Positions 28,064-31,020 of a stretch of 40,676 bases of DNA are shown piece by piece. Position 1 is the stretch's first letter. Every line of letters begins with the position of its first letter. Location: NCBI GenBank assembly GCA_021325475.1, contig JAJPHA010000105.1:1-40676 (forward strand), written 5' to 3'. The notes under the pieces are model-generated. The model had not been told where the DNA came from and did not search any database. It worked only from the letters and a program-made list of their open reading frames with translations. The position numbers and the translations under genes were made by a program. The DNA is from Rhodanobacteraceae bacterium (GTDB lineage: Bacteria; Pseudomonadota; Gammaproteobacteria; Xanthomonadales; Rhodanobacteraceae).

Positions 28064-28720
28064 TCACGCGCGGGCGTAGCGGCCGAACAGGAACAAGGCG
28101 AGCGCGGCGAGCAGCAGGGCGATGCCGAATGCCGGCAGCAGCATCAGGAACGGCAGGCCGAGCGCGGCGAGCGCGATCGCCCAGGCGTAGGCGTCGGCGA
28201 GGGGCTCCGGCATCGGATCCGCCTTGAGCGCGCGCGCGAGCAGGTAGTCGAGGCTGATCTTGCCGGGTCCCTGGAAGATGATCGGCAGCAGCATCACGAC
28301 GAACAGCAGCGGCAGCTTGAAGTTGCCGTAGCCCATGTCGGTGATCGCGTAGCCCTTGGCGAGATCGCTCCACATCGCGATCATGTCCGGCCAGTGCACG
28401 GCCGCGGTGGCGACGAAGGTGAGCACGAGCAGGCTGAACGCGGCCAAGCGCGTGCCGAGACCGATCACGAGCAGCACCGCGCCGGCGAGTTCGGTGTAGG
28501 TCGCCATCGTCCAACTGAGGTCGGCCGGGATCTTGCTGAACGGAAACGGGAACTTGCCCTGGATGTCGGTGAACCAGTTGTCGCCGAAGTATTTCTCGCG
28601 GCCCGACTCCCAGAATTCCCAGCCCATGATCAGGCGCAGCACCACCGGCGGCAGCAGTTGGCCGATGCCGCGCAGGCGGCTGGTGAGCGATTCCCACAAC
28701 GAAATGGCATTGGCGAGCAT
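28064..28720 (-). CDS. DoxX family membrane protein of the hvf operon
   Basis: A 218-residue integral membrane protein of the DoxX family with about five hydrophobic segments. Visible family parts are [21 protein letters not shown] (26-46) and [24 protein letters not shown]. DoxX proteins commonly close MNIO peptide operons, where they may act at the membrane in redox or maturation steps; the exact role is unknown. ATG 28720 has AAGGA a few bases upstream. A 142-base spacer with a strong hairpin separates it from the DUF2063 gene. Confidence 0.88.
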
Positions 28721-28756
28721 GACGGATTCCTTGACAACGGTTCGCGAAACGAGCGG

Positions 28757-28823
28757 GCGGATCGAATCGCCTGCGCTGCGCGCCGCCGCTGGCGCGACGC
28801 GCAGGTGAGCTGGCTCGATCCGC
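28757..28823. other. Long stem-loop in the spacer between the DUF2063 and DoxX genes
   Basis: Outer arms GCGGATCGA (28757-28765) and TCGATCCGC (28815-28823) pair perfectly. Inner arms at 28770-28784 and 28791-28805 pair over 13 of 15 positions around loop GCCGCT. No T-run follows on the minus strand, so an RNA-processing or expression-setting element is more likely than a terminator. Confidence 0.6.
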
Positions 28824-28862
28824 GCGATTGGACGCCGCGGCGCACGATGCCTTGCACGCCGT

Positions 28863-29651
28863 TCAGCGCGCCGGCCGCGTGCCTAGGATCGCCTCGTTCG
28901 CCTTGAGTTCGCCGAGCACGCGCACGCCCGCTTCGCGCAGCGCCGCGTCGCCGCCGTGCTCGGCGAGCAGCGCGTCGAGGCATTGCCCGCCGGTCGCGTT
29001 CTCGTTCTGCTGCAGGCGTTCGATCAGCAGTGCGGACAGCGCGTTGATCTCGTGGAAGCGCACTTCGTCGTCGCGCCCGCGCACCAGCAACAGCACGGTC
29101 GGTTCGGCGCCGGGTTCGCGCGGCTGGAACTCCGGCCGGATGCGGTGCACCGGGTAGCGGTAGGCGAGCACGCAGGCGAGCGGCGAGACCACCGGCACGC
29201 CGGTCAGCGGATCGCCGGCCGGATCGTGCGGCACGGCGGCGATCTCGTTCTCGTCGAGGCTGAGCGCGAGTTCGGCCCACTCGTAGTGGGCGAGTTCGAG
29301 CAGGAACGGCGGATCGTCGCGACCCTGCTGCTGGCGGAACTCGAGATAACGCAGGAATTCGCGGCCGAATTCGGGAAACAGCGGCGTGTGGCAGCGGTGT
29401 TCGCGGAAGAAGTCGCGCACCAGCACATTCCACGCCGCATCGTCGTACAGCGTGCGGATCACCGGGAAGTTCGAGGCGAGGAAGCTTTCGGTGTTGCTGA
29501 AGATGAGACGGCGATAAATGCCGATGCGCCGGTCCTCGATGCCGGCCGGCGCCGGACGGCGGTCCGGGTCGCGCAGATGCGCGGTGAACTCGTATTGCAG
29601 CGCGTGGGTGCGCGGCGCGCGCACCGCGCCGGCCTCAGGCGCGGAGCGCAT
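28863..29651 (-). CDS. hvfC: DUF2063 / HvfC family protein
   Basis: A 262-residue protein of the DUF2063 family, the usual partner of DUF692 enzymes. It supports recognition and modification of the precursor peptide. The N-terminal domain shows [46 protein letters not shown] and [36 protein letters not shown]. The C-terminal domain carries an all-helical winged-helix-like end ([14 protein letters not shown]). The start overlaps the end of the DUF692 gene by 17 bases, so production of the two proteins is coupled. The symbol follows the Haemophilus naming. Confidence 0.88.
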
Positions 29652-30495
29652 GCCGGCCCTCGTCCGCGGCGTGGCGGCGCTGGATCGCGCGGATCTGCTC
29701 GACCTCCGCGATCAGCTCGGCGAGCGGCGGGAAATTGCCGTCGCGTTCGAGCAGCGTCGGCCGCACGCCGAATTCCGCATAGGTGAGATCGAGCAGTTGC
29801 CATACCGGATCGATCACGGTCGCGGCGTGGCTGTCGACGATCAGGTCGGGGGCTTCGTGGTAGTGCCCGGCGACGTGGAAATAGGCGATGCGCTCGCGCG
29901 GCATCGCGCGGATGAACTGCACCGCGTCGTAGCGGTGGTTGATGCTGTTGACGTAGACGTTGTTGACGTCGAGCAGCAGATCGCAGTCGGCTTCGGCGAG
30001 CACCGCGCAGGTGAACTCGATCTCGCTCATTTCCCGGCCCGGCGCGGCATAGTACGAAGGATTCTCGATCGCCATGCGCCGGCCGAGGATGTCCTGGGCG
30101 CGGCGGATGCGCGCGGCGACCCAGTGCACGGCTTCCTCGGTGAACGGGATCGGCATCAGATCGTACAGGTGGCCGTCGTCGGAACAGAACGCGAGGTGTT
30201 CGCTGTAGAGACGGATGCCGTGGTCGTCGAGGAAACGACGGATCTTGTGCAGCAGGGTCTCGTCGAGCGGCGCCGGACTGCCGAGCGACAGCGACAGACC
30301 GTGGCAGACGAACGGGTAGCGTTCGGTGAAGGATCGGAACGTGCGGCCGAGCTTGCCGCCGACGTTGATCCAGTTCTCGGGCGCGACCTCGAAGAAGTCG
30401 ATCGGCGCGTGCGCGGCGTCCTGCAGCGGGCCCAACAGGGCCCGCCGCAGACCGAGTCCCGCACCGTGTACCGGTTGGCGTGGACGCCGGCTCAT
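29635..30495 (-). CDS. hvfB: DUF692 multinuclear non-heme iron enzyme (HvfB/MbnB family)
   Basis: A 286-residue TIM-barrel enzyme of the MNIO family, iron-dependent oxidases that modify cysteines in ribosomally made peptides. Likely metal ligands are present in order: H65 in [10 protein letters not shown]99/H100 in YSEHLAF, E144/N145 in AIENPSYY, D176/N178/N179 in [13 protein letters not shown]207/H211 in FHVAGHYH, D221/H223 in DSHAAT and a late Glu in LLERDGNFP. All expected positions look intact. The ATG is one base after the precursor stop. Related enzymes make oxazolone-thioamide or thiooxazole groups that bind copper; which product forms here is not known. Confidence 0.92.
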
Positions 30496-30496
30496 C

Positions 30497-30979
30497 TCAG
30501 TGACCGCTGCACGAACCTTCCTTGCCCTTCTTGTCGGCCGAGCAGGAGCCTTCCTTGCCCTTCTTGTCGGCCGAGCAGGAGCCTTCCTTGCCCTTCTTGT
30601 CCGCCGAGCAGGAACCTTCCTTGCCCTTCTTGTCGGCCGAGCAGGAGCCTTCCTTGCCCTTCTTGTCGGCCGAACACGAACCTTCCTTGCCCTTCTTCTT
30701 GTCCGCCGAACACGAGCCTTCCTTGCCCTTGTGCGCGTCGGCCATGCACTTGTCCTGCGCGGCCTTGTCCTTCATGTCCATGCACTTGACGCCCTTGGTG
30801 GCGCCGCACTTGCCTTCGCCGCACTTACCTTCCGACGCCTTGTCGGCGAGCATGTAGCCCGAGTCCATCGAATTGAGCTGGAAGTTGTTGCTGGCGTTGG
30901 CGATCTGCGCCAGGGACATCGAGCCGACGAATGCGGCGCCGATGGCGAGGCTGAGCGGTTTGATGATCTTGTTCGACAT
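30497..30979 (-). CDS. hvfA: HvfA-like Cys-rich precursor peptide with tandem EGSCS repeats
   Basis: A 160-residue secreted precursor. Residues 1-29 are a signal peptide ([25 protein letters not shown]). The conserved HvfA block [15 protein letters not shown] follows, then [10 protein letters not shown], two further Cys in [18 protein letters not shown], and seven Lys-rich repeats of the unit [11 protein letters not shown], the last ending EGSCSGH. Eleven Cys in total. Related HvfA proteins have Cys in EGKCG-type motifs converted to copper-binding groups by HvfB and HvfC. Here the repeats have EGSC-Ser, so whether all are modified is open. ATG 30979 is chosen because it starts the signal peptide, with GGAG upstream. 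It is the first gene of the operon. Confidence 0.88.
30500..30727. repeat. 33-base tandem repeat array inside the hvfA-like gene
   Basis: Seven coding units, 33 bases each except one of 36 with an extra Lys codon. Third-position differences (for example GAG/GAA for Glu, TGC/TGT for Cys) separate the copies while the peptide stays constant, which argues for selection on the protein rather than very recent duplication. Copy number could change by slippage or recombination. Confidence 0.9.
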
Positions 30980-31004: not shown

Positions 31005-31020
31005 ACGGGATGATTCCCGT
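31005..31020 (-). promoter_or_regulatory. Leader hairpin upstream of hvfA
   Basis: Six-base-pair stem ACGGGA/TCCCGT with four-base loop, ending about 25 bases before the hvfA ATG. It could affect mRNA stability or ribosome access. Confidence 0.35.

Follow-up and report, generated by a model that had tools for sequence, protein, structure and literature searches.

A captophorin-type operon in Rhodanobacteraceae with a predominantly EGSCS precursor and an MNIO enzyme altered at predicted substrate-facing positions

An operon from a Rhodanobacteraceae genome encodes a precursor peptide in which only two of nine EGxCx motifs are the canonical EGKCG and seven are EGSCS, together with an MNIO enzyme whose residues S222, A224 and G253 differ from those of most relatives. 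We consider it probable, at roughly 0.62, that this is a captophorin-type operon in which the main motif has shifted to EGSCS and the enzyme pocket has been naturally re-specified for Cys-Ser sites. Judged from its sequence, the operon is of a known kind, the captophorins or Buf_EGKCG oxazolins; what is new here is the precursor-enzyme pair, an unusual main motif with a matching difference in the enzyme. The window, that is the whole stretch of DNA analysed, comprises 40,676 nucleotides of contig JAJPHA010000105.1 (assembly GCA_021325475.1), and other loci are designated by L and a number.

According to the list of open reading frames, four co-directional genes on the minus strand, from 30979 to 28064, encode the precursor, the MNIO, a DUF2063 protein and a DoxX protein. 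The genes and the segments discussed below are as follows.

30497-30979, minus strand: precursor (HvfA-like), 160 aa
30509-30730, minus strand: 33-bp tandem array encoding 11-residue EGSCS units, 6.6 copies, 91% matches
29635-30495, minus strand: MNIO (HvfB family), 286 aa
29824-29835, minus strand: MNIO codons 221-224, D-S-H-A (D-T-H-G in most relatives), from the alignment
29734-29742, minus strand: MNIO codons 252-254, D-G-N (D-F-N in most relatives), with the catalytic base and the predicted equivalent of FonB Phe250; codon 253 is GGC
28863-29651, minus strand: HvfC-family partner (DUF2063 / PME1, NGO1945 C-terminal domain), 262 aa
28064-28720, minus strand: DoxX / HvfX-family membrane protein, 218 aa

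These coordinates and the family models agree with the first-pass annotation of a complete HvfABC operon with a DoxX gene, in which one base separates the precursor and MNIO genes and the MNIO and HvfC genes overlap by 17 bases; HvfC and the DoxX gene are 142 bases apart. The MNIO scored 433.9 bits against NF003818 'HvfB family' (cut-off 360) and also matched PF05114, and it stayed under the MNIO_BufB cut-off (NF050167, 260.7 vs 310). The partner reached 291.4 bits against NF050145 'HvfC family' (cut-off 142), with further matches to PF09836 and PF22106, and the DoxX protein 127.9 bits against NF050144 'HvfX family' (cut-off 80), with PF07681 matched too. A structure model of the MNIO built from 47 sequences (pLDDT 90.1) gave PDB 3BWW as its first match (E 2.1e-24), followed by TglH and MbnB. 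The operon has the arrangement of the captophorin or Buf_EGKCG class, an HvfB-type MNIO with DUF2063/PME1 directly after it and a Cys-repeat precursor directly before it, but EGKCG, the main repeat of that class, is here outnumbered by EGSCS. Membership of the bufferin Buf1 (DUF2282) class is not indicated, the precursor having no Pfam match at E 0.01. Within its own genome, searches for a second copy returned no match for the MNIO at E 0.001 and none for the precursor at E 0.1.

Along the precursor, a Sec-type signal sequence (assigned by eye) is followed by the two EGKCG motifs, a Cys-Met segment and the seven EGSCS units, and the eleven cysteines fall two, two and seven in these last three parts. 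Codon differences among the seven units of the array are synonymous except in the last, where the protein ends, a pattern that points to selection acting on the peptide and speaks against very recent amplification; one additional Lys follows the first unit. The first-pass annotation had called the precursor atypical, and aptly, because it clears the cut-off of the HvfA-family domain model NF050137 (26.7 vs 19.5 bits) and falls short of that for the full-length HvfA equivalog NF050188 (29.9 vs 95); the EGSCS motif, the Ser after Cys and the altered, predicted substrate-facing positions of the enzyme had escaped it. In seven of the nine precursors found in the genus (the window, L002, L005, L007, L008, L018 and L032) the EGKCG motifs and the array are separated by a segment with two cysteines, which in most of these, the window included, is Met-rich as well. 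L024 has an EF-hand-like stretch in its place, and L031 has neither.

The enzyme was compared with a first set of 91 distinct other HvfB-type enzymes, in which 78 columns are at least 97% conserved. The window MNIO keeps all 26 of the conserved His, Glu, Asp and Asn columns, catalytic base D252 included, and the earlier statement that its ligand-type residues are intact is thereby borne out; the assignment of particular columns as ligands comes from papers and homology. The other genus enzymes likewise retain their ligand-type residues. In the nine genus enzymes 66 of the 78 columns are unchanged (71 when the masked letters of L024 are disregarded), and the most frequently changed are 222 (9/9), 254 (7/9) and 118 (4/9). 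Position 222, where Ser replaces Thr throughout the genus, lies between two iron-site-3 residues, D221 and H223, which correspond by way of 3BWW to D242 and H244 of HvfB, whose Ala and Ser variants are described as inactive in the available text of PMC13419390. The sequence of the site-3 loop is D-S-H in the window enzyme and D-T-H in 3BWW, a protein 72.4% identical to HvfB; in the larger set of enzymes described below, G224A likewise appears in all nine genus members. Most relatives have Phe-Asn directly after catalytic Asp252. The window enzyme has Gly-Asn there, L031 keeps Phe-Asn, and the other seven genus enzymes have Phe-Arg, Phe-His or Phe-Lys, so that N254 became three different residues inside the genus. 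F253G is confined within the genus to the window, and its codon is at least two base changes away from any Phe codon.

Because FonB carries an Asp249-Phe250 pair, G253 is probably the equivalent of FonB Phe250. The enzyme-substrate contacts considered here are those of the papers: as far as the consulted part of PMC12668002 describes it, FonB Phe250 was modelled against substrate Lys3 and Gly5, position-5 variants other than Ala were blocked, and F250A and F250D were still active, with F250D gaining one position-3 variant.

An HvfB-type enzyme scoring above 380 bits is present in 9 of 16 genomes of the genus. This genus is probably that of Rudaea cellulosilytica; L007, from the window's genus, and L055 (Rudaea cellulosilytica DSM 22992) have the same match and the same precursor end. 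Ser directly follows at least one motif Cys in all nine HvfB-type loci found there. EGSCS occurs seven times in the window, five in L032, four each in L031, L002 and L005, three each in L007 and L008, and at least three in the partly masked L024, while L018 has none and carries two EGACS instead. The L031 precursor, besides its EGSCS units, contains two EGKCS, one EGSCA and no EGKCG. Searched as an exact DNA pattern across 398 genomes of the order, EGSCSADKK was found in three, each a member of the genus, a count that misses units spelt differently and comes from a sample including only part of the genus. A whole-word literature search, with supplements and most subscription papers outside its reach, returned no paper on EGSCS or EGSCG as peptide motifs, the EGSCS matches being judged by their titles to be other uses of these letters. 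A second MNIO type, 42-43% identical and with E-R-D-D for E-R-D-F, occurs in L027, L029 and L030 of the same genus; by this E-R-D-D residue it resembles the Cys-Lys group, and none was seen in the window's genome.

The residue directly after Cys (+1) was then set against the pocket across a larger sample. From 258 gathered loci, 12 of other type or too short were left out, giving 246 HvfB-type rows, and removal of 23 identical rows left 223 distinct enzymes; 184 of these have at least two EGxC motifs upstream and, with L024 read by hand, make up the 185 used, 38 being without such a precursor. The pocket was taken as columns 118, 222, 253 and 254, picked on the genus scan and, for 253, partly because of PMC12668002; L252, whose odd motif lies upstream of its start codon, was placed in the all-Gly group. 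A pocket change is present in 15 of 19 enzymes with any non-Gly +1 motif and in 4 of 166 Gly-only enzymes (Fisher 3e-15; 185 rows, relatedness ignored). Outside the genus the corresponding figures are 6 of 10 and 4 of 166 (Fisher 1e-6, again in rows with relatedness ignored), columns 118, 254 and 253 rank first to third among the 82 that are conserved, with T222 eighth (1/10), and a permutation stratified by background divergence matched the association in 0 of 20000 trials, counting rows rather than clades. On a tree built without the four pocket columns, seven non-Gly and seven pocket events fall outside the genus, three of them on the same branch (branch-length permutation p 0.0016). A paired sign test, with L252 counted as non-Gly, was not significant and had too few pairs: five were supported, of which on average 2.7 agree and 0.0 oppose (median p 0.25).

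The data show a statistical link between the +1 residue and pocket changes, which outside the genus rests on three lineages (L216; L225 with L237; L241 with L243 and L248). Most odd motifs of these outside lineages carry Ala, not Ser. The correspondence has exceptions: L097, L141, L157 and L210 are non-Gly with an unchanged pocket, L211, L242, L250 and L252 are Gly-only with a changed one, and L031 combines EGSCS with unchanged F253 and N254; L242 also has Cys-Ser outside any EGxC motif. By column, the events sharing a branch with a non-Gly event number two of five for 253, two of three for 222, one of two for 118 and one of nine for 254, and columns 102 (2/8) and 38 (2/5), which had not been picked, coincide as well as 253. 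Columns 102, 189, 38 and 218 also show a weaker row association with the +1 residue. Variation before the Cys has no link to the pocket comparable to that of the +1 residue; in the 166 all-Gly rows a pocket change accompanies position-3 variation in 3 of 48 and is otherwise found in 1 of 118. In HvfC (143 rows), none of 21 conserved columns is changed in half or more of eight genus rows, a control that is weak because its columns are few, HvfB at the same threshold having only 2 of 67 changed. The precursors of L241, L243 and L248 have four EGxCA motifs and their enzymes carry Trp or Tyr at position 118, and this second lineage is worth testing for the same adaptation.

Several characterized systems resemble this operon, and the following comparisons are with the accessible portions of the respective papers. 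Fontiphorin (FonABC, Fontimonas thermophila; PMC12668002) likewise combines an MNIO, a PME1 (DUF2063) protein and a Cys-repeat precursor, and its enzyme shares the Arg pair (R17 and R18 here) and the catalytic Asp. FonA, however, has seven modified sites in EGKCG repeats, FonB has Phe250 where the window enzyme has Gly253, the FonA position-5 variants were blocked by FonB apart from Ala while that position is mostly Ser in the window precursor, and the fon cluster is described as MNIO, PME1 and precursor only, whereas the window operon has a DoxX gene. The oxazolin system HvfABC of Haemophilus influenzae (PMC13419390) has the same enzyme and partner families and the iron-site-3 D and H, but carries six thiooxazoles on EGKCG repeats. 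Buf_EGKCG/oxazolin precursors as a group (PMC12452194) share the signal sequence and the core set of precursor, MNIO, DUF2063 and DoxX; they are described there with EGKCG repeats or EGKCG plus EF-hands, with no mention of EGSCS arrays in that portion. Bulbicupramide (MmrABC, Microbulbifer; PMC12538549) also has a multi-Cys precursor and an MNIO/DUF2063 pair, and its product is a reported copper chelator, but its five to eight cysteines lie in EGKCG units and Ser after Cys is not described in the portion consulted.

By analogy with these relatives, the HvfC-type partner would help to bind the precursor, and the HvfB-type iron enzyme, with a mixed-valent diiron centre, would convert precursor cysteines, probably including those of the EGSCS units, oxidatively into 5-thiooxazoles. 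Sec export would follow, and the resulting multi-thiooxazole peptide would bind copper, its presumed ligand. The thiooxazole, the need for a partner and copper binding are all taken from what is reported for relatives in the consulted parts of PMC12668002, PMC13419390 and PMC12452194, and the authors of PMC12538549, as far as that text was available, are hesitant in assigning copper protection. Within the genus, the main motif would have moved from EGKCG to EGSCS with the pocket altered along with it, by T222S between the site-3 iron ligands, by F253G (window) or N254 to R, H or K (sisters) after the catalytic base, and at F118 in some. The altered pocket would accept Ser after Cys, and on the sequence comparisons these changes may be the cause of that tolerance.

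It is unlikely, in our estimate, that modification is limited to the two EGKCG cysteines and that the EGSCS array is an unmodified, metallothionein-like tail serving as a thiol-rich metal-binding segment or spacer. Such a tail would fit the block that FonBC shows for position-5 variants other than Ala (PMC12668002, in the part consulted) and the retention of two or more EGKCG in seven of nine genus precursors, with one in L024; it fits poorly with L031, which keeps the precursor, MNIO, HvfC and DoxX genes in the absence of any EGKCG, and with pocket changes that follow the +1 residue. Compatible with an unmodified tail, and doubtful in our view, is the proposal that the pocket differences arose by drift or a founder effect within a single genus and have nothing to do with the motif, the operon being an ordinary captophorin one. 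T222S and G224A could be one ancestral change each, the sign test has too few supported independent pairs, and single columns rarely coincide on the tree, but a founder effect would not readily give three different residues at position 254, the same leading columns outside the genus, or the result of the divergence-stratified permutation, which treats rows rather than clades. An improbable variant would give the enzyme a distinct specificity, with remodelling round the catalytic base and iron site 3 allowing the MNIO to oxidise Cys residues followed by Ser; the product might then differ from 5-thiooxazole, since the amide or hydroxyl of the following residue adjoins the reacting thioaldehyde.

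The surroundings of the operon bear on a further proposal, that it forms one modification-and-efflux unit with the upstream RND operon, which we regard as highly improbable. The neighbours are RND outer-membrane, adaptor and permease genes upstream and RNase T and FmdB-type genes downstream. An RND operon directly upstream on the same strand had been noted earlier, and its position stands, with the outer-membrane gene ending 527 bases before the precursor start; a functional link is weakened by synteny, adjacency not being generally conserved. Among 15 loci checked, RND genes precede the operon in L008, L054 and L055, which favours a unit, but in L031, L033, L049, L052 and L057 the 4 kb upstream showed none, the remaining loci being short. 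The permease is under the cut-off of every model, multidrug models scoring best and CusA/CzcA third. RNase T follows the operon in 6 of the 15 (L031, L032, L049, L052, L055 and L057). On this evidence the RND operon seems to be there as a local neighbour.

No sigma-factor gene was found among the scanned neighbours (RNase T, FmdB-type and the three RND genes), as previously noted, and sigma/anti-sigma control was dropped as a candidate on this ground. Its significance had been over-read: the absence is ordinary for this group, because PMC12452194, in the part consulted, reports sigma/anti-sigma genes for Buf1 clusters, most Buf_EGKCG clusters consisting of the core precursor, MNIO, DUF2063 and DoxX. 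Between 27200 and 31600 no promoter-like site was found, and terminator-like sites numbered five vs 3.1 in shuffles, four of them array repeats read on the other strand. The leader RNA fold has a z of -1.63, and 11 of 200 shuffles were as good. Ahead of the precursor start, at a distance of 25 bases, is a perfect inverted repeat (31005-31020; ACGGGA, 4 bases, TCCCGT). When up to one mismatch is allowed, the window contains a single match to it, against 0.12 expected. L031, L032 and L024 have similar stems, with a G-C outer pair in L032 and a shorter stem in L024; none was seen in L005 or L008.

The genus represents a natural experiment within the EGKCG group, in which Ser follows Cys in most motifs, few positions have changed and the enzyme is otherwise conserved. 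Residues 118, 222, 224, 253 and 254 are singled out for swaps. The role of the third iron site is called puzzling in the available text of PMC13419390, and residue 222 sits between two of its residues.
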